DNA from: an uncultured Gammaproteobacteria bacterium
GTDB taxonomy: Bacteria; Pseudomonadota; Gammaproteobacteria; CAMYKB01
NCBI GenBank assembly: GCA_947258875.1
Contig: CAMYKB010000006.1
Coordinates: 1-64,000 of the forward strand
Direction: 5' to 3'
Length of the DNA: 64,000 bases
A program made the translations under genes and the position numbers. This document shows, piece after piece, positions 57,202 to 63,842 of this stretch. The notes under the pieces are model-generated. The model was not told where the DNA came from. It searched no databases and saw only the letters and a list, made by a program, of their open reading frames with translations. Positions within the stretch are counted from its first letter, which is position 1. Every line of letters starts with the position of its first letter.

Positions 57202-58215
57202 TTGAGTTTCGATATAACGCTTTTCCAATCACGGGCAACCATTCTGCGTTGGCTCGGCAAGGCAAGCGTTGCGGGCCTGCTAATTTCCGGCATAGCACAG
57301 GCGCAGCAGTCAAGTATCGCCTCAGTTAGTGCGACCACGCCTTTTATTGATGCAGCATCACGCTCACCGTCCACACCGGGCATAGATTACCCGCTACTAC
57401 GCGCGTCTCGTGATGATTCACTCCAATACGCGCTAGAGCAATCACTTGCAGAACTTGGTCTGGCAGAAACCATTTCAGACCAGCACCTGGCTGTTGCCCT
57501 CGTGGATATCACTAATCCACGACAGCCGCGCACCGCCGAAGTGAACGGCGATGAAATGTTTTATGCCGCCAGCCTGCCCAAAATCGGCATTCTTCTCGGC
57601 GCCTTCCAGCGCATTGCGAATGGCGAAATTGCCGCAGATCAGGACACGCTGACACAACTGACCAAGATGATTCGTGTCTCTTCGAATAGTGCTGCGACCA
57701 AGATGCTCAACCGGGTCGGTAAACAATACCTGGCTGAACTGCTGCAGTCAGAGCCCTATAAACTTTATGACCCTGAATTCAATGGTGGTCTTTGGGTTGG
57801 CAAGGAATATGCGAAGAGCAATACCTGGAAACGCGATCCACTGCATAACATCTCGCACGGCGCCACTGCCATGCAAACCGCGCGCTTTTATTATCTGCTG
57901 GCAACTGGACGACTGGTCTCATCCGAATACAGCCAGCAGATGAAGAAAATCATGGGCAATCCGGCTATCAAGCATAAATTCGTACTGGGTTTGCACGACC
58001 GGCCTGACGCGAGAATATTCCGCAAGTCAGGCTCCTGGCGTAATTACCACGCTGACAGCGCCCTGATTGAGCACGCTGGCAAGCGCTACATTGCCGTGGC
58101 ACTGTCTGACGACGTCCACGGCGGTAAATGGATGAGTCGTATGATCGCGAGTTTTGATGACATCATATTGGGACAGGACACAAATCCGACGCGCGTGGCT
58201 GACTCTTCTCATTGA
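57202..58215 (+). CDS. Exported serine hydrolase, class A beta-lactamase fold
   Basis: The 337-residue protein starts at a TTG and has a signal peptide (about 1-36, WLGKASVAGLLISGIAQAQQ). The beta-lactamase2-type core follows: nucleophile Ser124 and Lys127 in AASLPKIG, Ser160-Ser161-Asn162 in RVSSNSAATKML, and Lys275-Ser-Gly in FRKSGSWR. I cannot identify the Omega-loop Glu of true class A enzymes, so beta-lactam hydrolysis should not be assumed. It may act on peptidoglycan peptides. Convergent with the operon to the right, with a 4-bp gap; its core resembles the serine hydrolase at 59572. Confidence 0.8.
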   Translation: MSFDITLFQSRATILRWLGKASVAGLLISGIAQAQQSSIASVSATTPFIDAASRSPSTPGIDYPLLRASRDDSLQYALEQSLAELGLAETISDQHLAVALVDITNPRQPRTAEVNGDEMFYAASLPKIGILLGAFQRIANGEIAADQDTLTQLTKMIRVSSNSAATKMLNRVGKQYLAELLQSEPYKLYDPEFNGGLWVGKEYAKSNTWKRDPLHNISHGATAMQTARFYYLLATGRLVSSEYSQQMKKIMGNPAIKHKFVLGLHDRPDARIFRKSGSWRNYHADSALIEHAGKRYIAVALSDDVHGGKWMSRMIASFDDIILGQDTNPTRVADSSH

Positions 58216-58219
58216 TTTA

Positions 58220-59572
58220 CTAGTGCCTTTGAATCTCCGGGCTGGAAACCATCACCGTACCTTTCACCGTCTCGGCCACTCCAGTAGCATTTCGCCAGTC
58301 GCTTGTTTTCAGGGCCGACAGTTCCTGTTTAGCAAGCTGGTTATAGTCCTTGCGCAATACCAGAATTGCCATCACCCACGCCACGCACAAGCCCATAACA
58401 AGCCAACTCATTTGCGCCACATCTAATGTTACCGGTAGCCATTGGGTAACCAGCAGGATGATCAACGAACCGAGAATCTTAAACAAGCGATAACCCACCA
58501 TATCGATCCATGCCTTGGCGCGATAAATTATTTCGGGGCGAATAGGTACATAAAGCAATTCTTTTGAGACGCGGTTAATTGAATAAGACAAGCCACGGTC
58601 AAACAACTTCATAATCGTAGCCATTGGCATACTGGCATTAAACACAAAGAGCCAAGCGGCGGCGCCCAGCAGCAGTGGCTGCATAAGCAGGCCGGCGACA
58701 ACCCCCAAACTGCGTTGAATCACAGGCGCAAGAATAAGGTTAATCATCAACGCAAAAATACCCAGCAACATAAAGAAGGTCGATAAAAATGCCGTGCGAG
58801 ATTCCTGCTCCATATAGTTTTGGCCAACAAGCTTCATGAATTGATAGTCGACAATCGGTTGCGCCAACTGCGCCAGCAACAACAAGCTTGCAATCAACAA
58901 CAAATAGCGGCTGCTGGTAAGCAAAGACCAGGTATTCCTGGCATCGCCGAGTAAAACAGGTCCTTGCGTCTTATCCACTTCCTTGTACAGACCCCGACGC
59001 ACAAGACTTAATGTCAGCATAAATACCAATAAAATCATAGCCGCCGAAACCAACAACAAATCCGGCGTGCGCAAAGGCGTGTACTTGATAAGCGCAGCTG
59101 CCAGAGCACCGCCAACGAGCCCTCCCAAGACACCCCCACTCGCAACCAAACCATACCAGCGTTTACCCGTTTCCGTATGGTAAACACTATTTACCAGACT
59201 CCAGAGTTGCTCTACCAATACTACGCTGAAGATATCTACCAGCATGTAAAATGCAAATGCAATCTCGAAATTTGCATTCAGCATCAACACACGAAATGAC
59301 AACAGCAAACAGATAAAGATAAAACAGGAACCCAATACGGTTTGCTGACGCCCATAACGCTGCAGCAATTTCTGGTATACCGGCATTAACACAAGCAAAG
59401 TTAGCGCACTGCTAATCCAGACATAGGGCAATAAATCTGCATTACCATATTCAAGGAACAGCGAGCGGCTGGCGGGTTTAACCTGATAATACGCCAGAAT
59501 GATCAGGAAGAAATTAATGAATAAAAACCCCGCACGCAATAACGGCGTCATGTTTGCGCGGCTCGCCGACAT
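58220..59572 (-). CDS. ATP/ADP translocase-like (Npt/MFS) membrane carrier
   Basis: The 450-residue protein has about 12 membrane helices and the traits of the TLC/Npt nucleotide-carrier group: YYQVKPASRSLFLEYGNADLLPYVW near the N-terminus, then VNSVYHTETGKRWYG, and a conserved late loop RVSKELLYVPIRPEIIYRAKAWIDMVGYR. Homologous free-living bacterial proteins are annotated as Npt1/Npt2 nucleotide transporters, though transport of ATP by them is often untested. It starts one base inside the stop of the preceding serine hydrolase gene (TGATG), the third gene of a tight operon. Confidence 0.75.
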   Translation of the reverse strand: MSASRANMTPLLRAGFLFINFFLIILAYYQVKPASRSLFLEYGNADLLPYVWISSALTLLVLMPVYQKLLQRYGRQQTVLGSCFIFICLLLSFRVLMLNANFEIAFAFYMLVDIFSVVLVEQLWSLVNSVYHTETGKRWYGLVASGGVLGGLVGGALAAALIKYTPLRTPDLLLVSAAMILLVFMLTLSLVRRGLYKEVDKTQGPVLLGDARNTWSLLTSSRYLLLIASLLLLAQLAQPIVDYQFMKLVGQNYMEQESRTAFLSTFFMLLGIFALMINLILAPVIQRSLGVVAGLLMQPLLLGAAAWLFVFNASMPMATIMKLFDRGLSYSINRVSKELLYVPIRPEIIYRAKAWIDMVGYRLFKILGSLIILLVTQWLPVTLDVAQMSWLVMGLCVAWVMAILVLRKDYNQLAKQELSALKTSDWRNATGVAETVKGTVMVSSPEIQRH

Positions 59573-60858
59573 CAGCGACCGACCCCATCGACATTTACCT
59601 GGCCGTGCTCAGCCTCAATCAGTCGATGTATGCGCTTTGCCAGAGTTTGATGGGCAACCGCAGAATTCTTTTTTAATACATTCGACATAACCACGACCAT
59701 ATAATGATATTTTGGTTTACCAGCCGGCGATTCGATAATGGCAACCGAAGCGAGCCGGTTGACGCGGTTGCCCTTATATTTTCCACATACGTATCCGGGC
59801 TCAGGCTGGCAACTGTATAGCGAACCGGACTTGAAATAGACCGCGGCATTGAATAGCGCTGGATGCGAGGCATATCGAATACGTTTCTGGGTCATATACA
59901 GCAGGCGCTTAATTTCACGGCTGGAAAACGTATCCACCAGCGTGCCGTTTTCGAGTTTGTATAACAACTTCATGAGTTCACGCGAATTACCATAGCTACT
60001 TGCACCAGGCACGCGACGCTTGCCTTCGCGGGTAAAGAAACTTCCCTGCCTTAACGCCTCAGGATCGAGTCCGTTGCGTACCAGCGGCGTGCGCGTCGCA
60101 TCCAGCAAGACATCGCCAAGATCAATACGTGATGTATTTTTGAAAAAGACATCGCTCTGGACGTTAGTGAGCGGATAATTTTTACCGTAAACACTTAATA
60201 GCATTAGATGCTTCATGACCATACTGGCCGCCGCGTTTGAACTGGCCGACAACATCCAATCCAGATATTCCCATAAGCTACCACGATCACCTGGACGCAA
60301 CCTGCGAAATGTGACCCTCTTACTTTCGTTATCCCACAAAGGCACCTTGTGCTCATCATAGATCACAAAGTCGTCTGCAATGATCTGTGACTCCCGCAAC
60401 ACACGTTCACGTTTGGCTATGTCATCAGGATACAAATCCGCCAACTGTTGAAATACCGCTAACGCCACCAATAACTTACCGACACTACCGATATTTGTGC
60501 GCTGATCAGCGTTGAGCTCGGCATAGCGTGGTCGTGAAGGGGTAGACAGGTCTAACAAGGTCACACTATAACGACTAGCCTCACGACCCAGCAGCCGCCT
60601 AATTTTATTACTAAGCTCTACATCAATCGCTGGCAAGCTCTCAGCTTGCCCAGAGGATATGCCAGATAACCGTGGTTCGACCTGATCCATCATCAACAAC
60701 GCCCCTGACGGCAATTGCATACCCCTAACCACACCCTCCTGTGCCAAACGATAATATTCCAGACGTTTGATATCGGTATAACCATAACCATCCAACGGAT
60801 AAGCAGCTGCCGACTGCACGAGCGTCAGGAACAATACCAAGACAATAATGTACTTCAT
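59572..60858 (-). CDS. Exported serine hydrolase, class A beta-lactamase fold
   Basis: The 428-residue protein has a signal peptide (about 1-19, YIIVLVLFLTLVQSAAA), an N-terminal extension of about 75 residues, and the penicillin-recognising triad: Ser125 and Lys128 in NIGSVGKLL, Ser206-Ser207-Asn208 in SASSNAAASMV, and Lys343-Ser-Gly in YFKSGSLYSC. The C-terminal part holds a Cys pair (SLYSCQPEPGYVCG) suggesting a disulfide. Its ATG overlaps the stop of the dikinase-like gene by 4 bp. It is a second member of the same fold family as the 57202 product, not a duplicate. Confidence 0.8.
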   Translation of the reverse strand: MKYIIVLVLFLTLVQSAAAYPLDGYGYTDIKRLEYYRLAQEGVVRGMQLPSGALLMMDQVEPRLSGISSGQAESLPAIDVELSNKIRRLLGREASRYSVTLLDLSTPSRPRYAELNADQRTNIGSVGKLLVALAVFQQLADLYPDDIAKRERVLRESQIIADDFVIYDEHKVPLWDNESKRVTFRRLRPGDRGSLWEYLDWMLSASSNAAASMVMKHLMLLSVYGKNYPLTNVQSDVFFKNTSRIDLGDVLLDATRTPLVRNGLDPEALRQGSFFTREGKRRVPGASSYGNSRELMKLLYKLENGTLVDTFSSREIKRLLYMTQKRIRYASHPALFNAAVYFKSGSLYSCQPEPGYVCGKYKGNRVNRLASVAIIESPAGKPKYHYMVVVMSNVLKKNSAVAHQTLAKRIHRLIEAEHGQVNVDGVGR

Positions 60859-63815
60859 TGTGATACTACCAATGGTGATTGCGTGAGCAGCACGCGCCTT
60901 GAAGCTGCTTTACGCAAGCCTGCATCAAGTGAGGCCAGATAGCTGTCACGTCGTGTTGCCTGATCCTGCACAAATGGACGAATCTGAAATAACATTAGCT
61001 GGTCGCGAACGAAACCGAATTCGATATCAGCCGGCACCAACTGACCTTCTGCGTTATAAAGACCGGGATAGTTGCGTGGCACTTTTCGTACCAACTCAAT
61101 CAGCTGCGCCAAATCACTGGAGGATAAGATGCGCTCACCACCACTGGCCACGATCATGCGCGAGCCACCACCCACCAGCAAGACGCGCTTATGCGGGGCA
61201 GTTGCTGAAGTCATCAGCTGTGCAACGCCGGTATCGAGGTTAACCAGCAGGGTTTCGGCGGATTGACCTTCTACTGCACCACCTACACCCTCATTACTTA
61301 CCACTGTCATAGACGCTTTTGCACCGTCATAGATATCGGTTGTTACGATCACACCGGATTTTTCTGCCGACACACTCTTGTGCAGCAGCACTGAAACGTA
61401 AACGTGCTCGGGATGATCCATCAACAATTGCCGCCAACCAAAGGCTCGCTCGGTAAAAGGTGACGCCCATACCTCTTTGATCGCTTGTAGTATATCCTCG
61501 AACCCCACGACATTGGGGACAGTGCGATTTAACCCCGCCCCGGTGAATCCCGGCAAATCCTCCACGTTAGTATCACTACGCACAAACACGCCATAACTGC
61601 CCTCTTCGCCAAAGGTTTGCAGCATGGCTGATTGCAAACGTCGCCGGAAAGAAGGATCGAACTTGGTATCAAGTATACGAGTACGCAGCTGCGTGAGAAC
61701 TTCCCCCAAGCGTTGTGCATGGACCTCAGAGTCCTCCCTGAGATTACGTAAACTCGCATACTGATCCTGCATCCATTCGAAAATACTGGTGGCGCTGTCG
61801 GCAAACATGGGTTGCTCCAGCATGTTCCGGTAAAAGCCAAAAGGGATCACTAGTCCTGGCGAAACCTTACCCGGAAAACGATACGACAGCTCACCTACAT
61901 GAGCAGCCTTGGGTCCTACGATGTGCCCTGAATGTTTCGCGCGTAGCTCGCTGATTGGGATAAAACGCGTATCCTTAAGTCCCAACTTACCGATATCGAC
62001 ACGGATACGCACATGCGAAGACTGCTGCCTGCGTGCGAAGACCTCATCCCATTTCGGCCCATCGGCTTGCAACTGCACAACACCCTCCGGACTCACCGCC
62101 AATACTACTGGTGTACCGCGTCGCGCAATAAGTTCCGGCAGTAGAGCACCACTCACGACCACGTTGGGAATACCGAGATTACGCGCCAGTAGTTGCACAT
62201 GGGAAAGGTGATTACCTTCAGAAGCGGTTATGATTCCGGAAACCGGCGGTAGATCGGCGACTGTCTCCGGCACAATGAATATGTCCTTGCGTTCAGATGG
62301 ACCGGTTTCCCCAAGATCTGCCTGGGTGCGCAAAATACCGCGCGACAAACCGGGATTAAGACTACGCAAGCCTGTGTCCACCGTACGACCGAACAGTTCA
62401 TGATGTATACCACTTAGTGTATTGGCATCTGCACTTAAGGTATCCAACAACTCGGTATAAAACAGCAGCGGACTGCCACGCAGGCGATCAGCAGTATAAT
62501 GACGCACCAGAGGTTCGATCTGCGCAAGATGCTCGATCATCGGGCCAAAGTAAAATCGCAGACGCCGTGCAGCCCAATCCGGCACCCTGGAGAGGTATTT
62601 AAGTTCCTGTCGATACTCGGCCAATGGCAACCGCACACGGTCCATACGCCCTGATACATGTCGTAATTCACCCCATTCGCGACGTGTGATCAAACCCATT
62701 CCATACAGAACTTGTGTTGTAGCACGCAGCCATTGCAGGCATTGCGCACGACTGTTGTCTTGCACGTTGTGCCGCAAGTCGCGCCCGGTCACAAATGCCT
62801 CCAACTCTAACGCGATACTCACATCCAAAGCCTGTAGCATACGTCCTGCAGTACCCATATCGGACAAACGATCGCGCAACATCACTAGCAACTCACCACT
62901 AATCCGTAAACGCTCAGTGGACGTGGATGCACTATCAAGTACTGTTGCGCCTTCACGCAGGGACCGGGCCAGACTGTTATCGGCCAGCCCATTTGCCAAG
63001 TCCGTTAACATGGCAGGCACATCGCTACGATCGTATGTATCAGCGATCTGTTGGGTTAACTGTTGATACTGCTGGTGTAATTCCGGTTTGCCGCGGGTCC
63101 GCGCATACTCATATACACGCTGCGCATCTCCTGCATCAGGTCTTGCATGTATTTTATTACGCAGGGACACAAACCCCGGATCTTGCTCTGCAATGACGCC
63201 GGAAAGTCCACGCACTTGAGTCAATGAGGTTTCGCGACTACCATGCGGCAGTAATCTCACCGCTTCGCGCAATAAGGGGTAACGCTGTTCACGCCACACC
63301 GGATCCACCACCATTGATTGCAAAATGGCTTTCGCACTACGGCTTTCATCTTCGATTTGAAATGCGCCCCGGTAAAAGCGGGCTTTACGTAAAATCCAGC
63401 CATCATTTTCAGCTATGAGAAACTGTTCCAGGAGCAAAATTTTCAAGGTATCACGGTCTGCGAGACCACCGCGAAAATCATCTGGCTGAAGATCGGCCAG
63501 AATATTGGCTATGGGAAATCCCGCTGCACGAATCAGGCGGGTCTGTTCACTCCACTCGCCATGTTGCACCCCACCTCCATGCTCATTACAGGCATATGGC
63601 TCGGGCGGTAATACGGCGCCATCACGACAAAACCAGCGAATACGTGCGAAAGGACCGCGCGGATTTTGTTGCATAGCCTGAATCCAGGCGCGCATAGTGT
63701 CTTTATCAATATGCTCTGGTGCTGGTGCCGCAGACTGCGATTGGCTCATAATCAACACACTCATCAAGAGCAGTAAAACCCTACTTACTGATTTAGAAAT
63801 GATGTGTGTGTTCAT
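60855..63815 (-). CDS. Exported glucan-water-dikinase/PEP-synthase-like protein
   Basis: The 986-residue protein has a signal peptide (about 1-29, SRVLLLLMSVLIMSQSQS). A long N-terminal helical part of no known family follows (about 40-490, with a Cys pair in FCRDGAVLPPEPYACNEH). Next come a phosphohistidine swivel domain (about 505-590, His539 in NHLSHVQLLARNLG) and a C-terminal PPDK-type ATP-grasp domain (about 630-950: KAAHVGELSYRFPGKV, VRSDTNVEDLPGFTGAGLNR, ADIEFGFVRDQLMLFQIRP). Order (His domain then ATP-grasp) and the RSDTNVEDL...AGL...PNV...VWAS motif recall glucan water dikinases rather than PEP synthase. The ATG at 63815 is used; GTG 63842 is possible. No PEP/pyruvate TIM-barrel domain is present. 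Confidence 0.85.
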   Translation of the reverse strand: MNTHIISKSVSRVLLLLMSVLIMSQSQSAAPAPEHIDKDTMRAWIQAMQQNPRGPFARIRWFCRDGAVLPPEPYACNEHGGGVQHGEWSEQTRLIRAAGFPIANILADLQPDDFRGGLADRDTLKILLLEQFLIAENDGWILRKARFYRGAFQIEDESRSAKAILQSMVVDPVWREQRYPLLREAVRLLPHGSRETSLTQVRGLSGVIAEQDPGFVSLRNKIHARPDAGDAQRVYEYARTRGKPELHQQYQQLTQQIADTYDRSDVPAMLTDLANGLADNSLARSLREGATVLDSASTSTERLRISGELLVMLRDRLSDMGTAGRMLQALDVSIALELEAFVTGRDLRHNVQDNSRAQCLQWLRATTQVLYGMGLITRREWGELRHVSGRMDRVRLPLAEYRQELKYLSRVPDWAARRLRFYFGPMIEHLAQIEPLVRHYTADRLRGSPLLFYTELLDTLSADANTLSGIHHELFGRTVDTGLRSLNPGLSRGILRTQADLGETGPSERKDIFIVPETVADLPPVSGIITASEGNHLSHVQLLARNLGIPNVVVSGALLPELIARRGTPVVLAVSPEGVVQLQADGPKWDEVFARRQQSSHVRIRVDIGKLGLKDTRFIPISELRAKHSGHIVGPKAAHVGELSYRFPGKVSPGLVIPFGFYRNMLEQPMFADSATSIFEWMQDQYASLRNLREDSEVHAQRLGEVLTQLRTRILDTKFDPSFRRRLQSAMLQTFGEEGSYGVFVRSDTNVEDLPGFTGAGLNRTVPNVVGFEDILQAIKEVWASPFTERAFGWRQLLMDHPEHVYVSVLLHKSVSAEKSGVIVTTDIYDGAKASMTVVSNEGVGGAVEGQSAETLLVNLDTGVAQLMTSATAPHKRVLLVGGGSRMIVASGGERILSSSDLAQLIELVRKVPRNYPGLYNAEGQLVPADIEFGFVRDQLMLFQIRPFVQDQATRRDSYLASLDAGLRKAASRRVLLTQSPLVVSQ

Positions 63816-63842
63816 TAAATTTGCATATTGTCGTCGCGACAC

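Follow-up and report, generated by a model that had tools for sequence, protein, structure and literature searches.

The 64,000-nucleotide stretch analysed here (the window) comes from an uncultured Gammaproteobacteria bacterium (contig CAMYKB010000006.1, positions 1 to 64,000) and carries a group of genes headed by D, which encodes a swivel-histidine/ATP-grasp protein with a predicted leader (Table 1). D, the serine hydrolase gene SH1 and the carrier gene NTT form the tight leftward operon described in the initial annotation; they span 58220-63815, with overlaps of 4 bp between D and SH1 and of 1 bp between SH1 and NTT. That annotation had taken D for an exported enzyme with swivel and ATP-grasp domains, SH1 for a serine hydrolase and the third gene for an ATP/ADP-translocase-like carrier, and the searches reported below bear out all three assignments. 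It had however described a system of three genes and missed a fourth, SH2, which converges on NTT with a gap of 4 bp. The length of D in Table 1 is counted from an ATG codon; an in-frame GTG at 63842 would give a protein of 995 aa. Sigma-70-like and terminator-like sites were no commoner in the locus than in shuffled sequence.

Table 1. Position and main features of the four genes in the window.
Gene	Description	Position	Strand	Product
D	swivel-histidine/ATP-grasp protein with predicted leader	60855..63815	-	986 aa; leader ~1-28; unmatched ~37-470; swivel around His539; ATP-grasp 632-953
SH1	class A-like serine hydrolase with predicted leader	59572..60858	-	428 aa; SxxK S125-K128; SxN S206-N208; KSG 343-345
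NTT	ATP/ADP-translocase-family carrier (predicted)	58220..59572	-	450 aa; ~12 long helices
SH2	second class A-like serine hydrolase with predicted leader	57202..58215	+	337 aa; SxxK S124-K127; SxN S160-N162; KSG 275-277

Two domains were recognised in D by the Pfam search, PPDK_N (3e-27, 96 bits for a cut-off of 27) and PEP-utilizers, the swivel domain (1.5e-5, 24.9 bits for a cut-off of 23.1). The swivel histidine, His539, lies within GNHLSHVQLLARN. When 21 D orthologues were aligned, H539, K636 (GPKAA), R746 (VRSDTN), E932, Q944 and R946 were all invariant, which supports an intact active site. Three of these residues, K636, R746 and H539, are the counterparts of Lys22, Arg117 and His825, which the rifampin phosphotransferase RPH-Lm requires (PMC4844700). 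In a Foldseek search, the AF2 model of D (mean pLDDT 85, pTM 0.82) matched RPH-Lm, HpeI and phosphoenolpyruvate (PEP) synthase (PEPS) over the ATP-grasp part only, with a target-normalised TM value of 0.87 against the RPH ATP-grasp domain 5hv6_A; for the helical region (~90-470), the fold search likewise yielded only ATP-grasp matches. By both of its domains, D is assigned to the swivel-histidine/ATP-grasp dikinase superfamily (PEPS, PPDK, RPH, HpeHI). Its place within this superfamily is less easily named. PPDK_N and PEP-utilizers were the only Pfam families found at E values up to 10, and neither a PEP/pyruvate-binding C-terminal domain nor any GWD-specific or carbohydrate-binding family appeared. 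We rejected PEP synthase or PPDK proper (NCBIfam PEPS score of 105 for a cut-off of 740), rifampin phosphotransferase (RIF_Ptrans_rph, 82 bits for a cut-off of 999) and GWD/PWD. The "GWD/PPDK" label first given to D was therefore too specific, the nearest solved structures being those of rifampin phosphotransferase, HpeI and PEP synthase.

The leader of D was examined in 94 D relatives by a hydropathy and charge heuristic, which is not a trained signal-peptide predictor. A hydrophobic stretch of 12 residues (mean hydropathy of at least 1.9) stood just ahead of the mature part in all 94; it was preceded by Lys or Arg in 89 and followed by a small-residue cleavage-like site in 93, and the mature part contained a conserved WFC...C cysteine pair in every case. 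By comparison, the score was lower (1.57) for the cytoplasmic, PEP synthase-like protein that this genome encodes, and both SH1 and SH2 carry leaders too. By this heuristic, the export of D beyond the cytoplasm is supported.

Both hydrolases matched the Pfam family Beta-lactamase2 (1e-9 for SH1 and 1e-18 for SH2), and the SxxK, SxN and KSG motifs were invariant and in the same order in the alignment of 16 SH1 orthologues and in that of SH2. A Cys350/Cys358 pair was also invariant in the SH1 alignment. Inspection of the alignments by eye revealed no invariant Glu at the expected spacing between SxN and KSG, in SH1 or in SH2; since no conserved Glu166-type general base, a residue of the omega loop, was seen, neither protein is called a beta-lactamase proper. 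Thus SH1 and SH2 resemble the class A beta-lactamase/DD-peptidase-like proteins (Beta-lactamase2, e.g. Tll2115) in their leader and in the succession SxxK, SxN, K[ST]G, and depart from class A beta-lactamases at the general base. The SH1 profile search matched no solved structure, and Tll2115 was a weak PDB match of SH2. We infer that both proteins may act through an acyl-enzyme on peptidoglycan or on another envelope compound.

The carrier matched the Pfam TLC ATP/ADP transporter family (PF03219, 4.5e-17, 62.5 bits for a cut-off of 21), and its profile matched the Chlamydia NTT1 chain (2.7e-23) and the Arabidopsis NTT1 chain (3.5e-15). The three top PDB folds for its model, 9j3m, 9j3n and 9j3l, are those of AtNTT1 and Chlamydia NTT1 (TM value of ~0.75), with an identity to solved NTT members of only 17%. 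The key charged residues of AtNTT1 are K155, E245, E385 and K527 (PMC10654386, PMC3306366). We placed them by residue counts in the profile alignment, with an offset of 84 that was consistent for E245, E385 and K527; these three aligned with D113, D241 (D/E) and K365 (K/R) of the carrier, which are conservative counterparts, and K155 fell at a gap. Membership of the NTT nucleotide transporter family is well supported by these comparisons, and ATP is a likely substrate.

The distribution of the four genes was followed in a sample of 274 genomes from the window's class. D was present in 26 of them, belonging to 19 families, and SH1 in the same 26 genomes, plus one 97-residue fragment in G204. 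SH2 was found in 24 genomes and NTT orthologues, with identities of 44% or more, in 22, every one of these genomes being among the 26 with D; the genomes without D contained NTT paralogues only, at most 28% identical. The hypergeometric p for co-occurrence was ~1e-28 to 1e-35, a value that ignores relatedness. The gene organisation is far from chance. Moreover, the coupling of the four genes holds when pairs are unlinked: D and SH1 lie ~30 kb from NTT and SH2 in G197 and on a separate contig in G066, and all four genes are present in both genomes. No further conserved neighbour was found across the loci, and no other biosynthetic gene was conserved in the cassette.

The co-occurrence was found to reach other phyla. 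A single-sequence scan of genome contigs for D gave no match, and an alignment scan gave at least 554 D-relative stretches, 80 of which were fetched. D relatives were found in Gammaproteobacteria (Guyparkeria, Halothiobacillus, Hydrocarboniphaga, Sinimarinibacterium, Parahaliea and Agaribacterium) and also in Thermodesulfobacteriota, Myxococcota, Nitrospirota and others, and loci arranged as D-SH1-SH2(antisense)-NTT occur repeatedly, in Gammaproteobacteria, Thermodesulfobacteriota and Nitrospirota. All four genes were present at 34 of the 80 fetched loci and SH1 at 74, and SH2 was a recurrent neighbour at many loci; many of the contigs were short. In the sample of the phylum, a single genus accounted for most matches; it belongs to the window's phylum but to another class, and its loci have the same genes, in some cases with SH2 in duplicate. 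The D tree mixes phyla (7 label changes for a minimum of 3); as it includes bins and uncertain rank labels, we make no firm claim of transfer of D between phyla. Spread by plasmids is unsupported, D not having been found in PLSDB. Two copies of SH2 were seen at loci L162, L164 and L167, and in L162 and L164 they lie on either side of the carrier gene.

With the orthologue hidden Markov model (HMM), an NTT-family gene was detected at 44 of the 52 named loci that are 13 kb or longer. Loci that lack the NTT orthologue often have another NTT-family gene, of deep divergence, adjoining D: it directly followed SH1 in L070, L092, L096 and L131, and was nearby in L058, L084, L089, L098, L115, L129, L133 and others. 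The PF03219 cut-off was passed by L070, L089, L092, L098, L129, L133, L161 and an L091 fragment. L096, L131 and L115 gave no Pfam TLC match and L058 was just under the cut-off, so that for these four the NTT-family call rests on the orthologue HMM. In L161 the genes form a same-strand NTT-SH2-D-SH1 operon whose D is 37% and whose NTT-family gene is 25% identical. Since divergent NTT-family genes replace the missing orthologue at many loci, an NTT-family carrier is a recurrent partner of D and not an accident of one lineage, and the fact that other members of the family take its place strengthens the predicted role of NTT as a nucleotide carrier. In L044 (568-2757) and L043 (14430-16889) the carrier is directly followed downstream by another TLC-family protein, which is longer (730-820 aa) and in L044 has weak HEAT matches. 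L084 (4753-7911, 1053 aa), L087 and L101 contain, upstream of D, a large open reading frame (ORF) that has a cyclic-nucleotide-binding (cNMP) domain, weakly resembles the carrier profile and may be an NTT-cNMP fusion.

Taken together, these results lead us to propose, with a probability of roughly 0.58, that the four genes encode an envelope phosphotransferase module that draws ATP through its own carrier and whose acceptor is processed by the hydrolases. A Sec-type leader would take D through the inner membrane. Once beyond the cytoplasm, D would use ATP in the manner of other swivel dikinases: its C-terminal ATP-grasp domain would bind ATP, which would phosphorylate His539 on the swivel domain, yielding AMP and inorganic phosphate. 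The phosphate would then move from His539 to an acceptor, presumably held by the unmatched N-terminal helical region of D and probably an envelope polymer or an acyl or peptidyl compound. SH1 and SH2, as serine acyl-enzymes of the penicillin-recognising fold, would prepare, release or transfer this acceptor. The periplasm is generally regarded as free of ATP, hence the supply of D by the NTT-family carrier, which would exchange cytoplasmic ATP for spent nucleotide. Where a leader, an intact ATP site and a recurrent NTT partner have to be explained together, the simplest hypothesis is a secreted, ATP-using phosphotransferase to which a carrier delivers nucleotide. The wider proposition, that some free-living Gram-negatives actively supply periplasmic ATP via a dedicated exchanger in order to run a secreted phosphohistidine dikinase, seems to us evenly balanced. 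Such a dikinase would be a bacterial counterpart of the lumenal kinases that ATP antiporters feed in the eukaryotic secretory pathway. The interpretation first put forward, of a carrier delivering nucleotide for an envelope phosphorylation with a hydrolase trimming or releasing the target polymer, is as a whole partly supported at the level of sequence. Of the three findings that the initial annotation had named as refuting it (loss of His539 or of ATP-grasp residues in orthologues, a cytoplasmic location of D, or no co-occurrence in other genomes), none emerged from the sequence comparisons.

Several observations weigh against this proposal. None of the genes in the cassette names the acceptor, and the region of D preceding the swivel domain matched nothing known. 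Eight of the 52 long loci have no NTT-family gene nearby, meaning that the carrier is not obligatory at the locus, and some genomes with D (e.g. Parahaliea) have only distant NTT paralogues, away from D. NTT-family proteins of free-living bacteria lack an assayed transport activity (PMC5381601). Finally, AtNTT1 binds nucleotide only with its Lys155 (PMC3306366), and in the profile alignment this residue is unmatched in the carrier, falling at a gap beside W52; the substrate may thus not be ATP/ADP. The carrier could then move another cargo (the acceptor or phosphorylated product, AMP or a different anionic metabolite), D using released or extracellular ATP. Such a cargo would fit a family that is diverse and mostly uncharacterised (PMC5381601) and a fold that is the general one of the major facilitator superfamily (MFS), many of whose transporters match at lower rank. 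We nevertheless find it unlikely, as it is ATP/ADP translocators, and not other MFS proteins, that rank first by fold and by profile, and the presence of several deeply divergent NTT members in the same place fits a shared substrate of the nucleotide class better than a special product.

The activity of D may also be read differently. D could be an ATP-dependent condensing enzyme, as PigC and RedH are, that works outside the cytoplasm to join two precursors of the envelope or of a secondary metabolite, the hydrolases serving as acyl-transfer partners. In favour of this reading, models of PigC and RedH match D over this ATP-grasp region, and two acyl-enzyme-type hydrolases are constant partners; it is unlikely, given that RPH, HpeI and PEPS, all phosphotransferases, match better and that the cassette conserves no further biosynthetic gene. 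D working in reverse, making ATP from AMP and periplasmic phosphorylated compounds while the carrier imports nucleotide, would amount to scavenging. Reverse operation is known for PPDK (PMC5371819), and the NTTs that have been characterised from intracellular bacteria are ATP importers (PMC5381601); scavenging would however require an extracellular high-energy phosphate donor, none being evident, and would leave two penicillin-fold hydrolases without a clear role, which makes it very unlikely. The heuristic nature of the leader call bears on a last possibility, in which D faces the cytoplasm, its N-terminal stretch is merely an anchor and the link with the carrier is indirect. The near constancy of the positive residues, cleavage-like sites and mature-part cysteine pair among the D relatives, together with the leaders of both hydrolases, renders it most improbable.

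Compared with known systems, the envelope phosphotransferase module that we propose would be new in its composition, its parts belonging to known superfamilies. Nothing relevant to a periplasmic dikinase, an exported PEP-synthase-like enzyme or a periplasmic supply of ATP was found in the literature outside subscription journals, nor was any system of this composition, in line with what had been stated at first. RPH-Lm and the two-component small-molecule dikinase HpeHI share with D an ATP-grasp domain and a swivel phosphohistidine domain without a PEP/pyruvate domain, and HpeHI shows that enzymes of this type can serve as small-molecule dikinases (PMC12167813). The substrates of these enzymes are small aromatic compounds, and no secretion of them is known, whereas D places the swivel before the ATP-grasp domain, has a long unmatched N-terminus and a predicted leader, and stands beside two hydrolases and a carrier. 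In the plant glucan and phosphoglucan water dikinases GWD and PWD, the swivel domain precedes a C-terminal ATP-grasp domain. D has the same order, and water-dikinase chemistry is plausible; in contrast to GWD and PWD, the GWD-specific domain and the carbohydrate-binding module were not found in D, and, as in PEP synthase, its VWAS motif comes after its R-motif. The carrier resembles the NTT (TLC/AAA) transporters of plastids, Chlamydia and Rickettsia in fold, profile and the E245/E385/K527 counterparts, and differs from them by the missing Lys, by its occurrence in free-living bacteria and by its place beside an exported kinase-like protein. If the proposal is true, a module made of a secreted ATP-using enzyme and a nucleotide carrier, spread as widely as the D-relative stretches of the genome collection, would break the assumption of envelope biology that the periplasm is free of ATP. 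It would also point to a new phosphorylated envelope component and provide the first testable role for the NTT carriers of free-living bacteria, a question left open by PMC5381601.

Further observations concern individual loci. The Myxococcota-grouped contigs L072 and L078 have extra D-related ORFs in tandem with D, and related ORFs were seen near D in L044, L046, L050 and L053 (9457-10323), that of L053 being ~2.6 kb upstream of D, outside the window. Pfam makes the L044 product a response-regulator/protein-kinase, and that of L053 reads like a Ser/Thr protein kinase. Distant D relatives with a leader, ~30-33% identical, occur in L054, L159 and L160; a divergent serine hydrolase gene accompanies the first and an SH1-like gene the last, and L159 has neither. 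The 1411-aa ORF of L054 was considered as a D fusion with an extra domain and rejected, as its first part runs antisense to a gene of the SH2 type; the actual protein is a distant D of the ordinary kind, leader included. The genome of the window itself encodes another PPDK_N protein of ~1398 aa (G000:C25:26872-27423), unlinked to the D locus.

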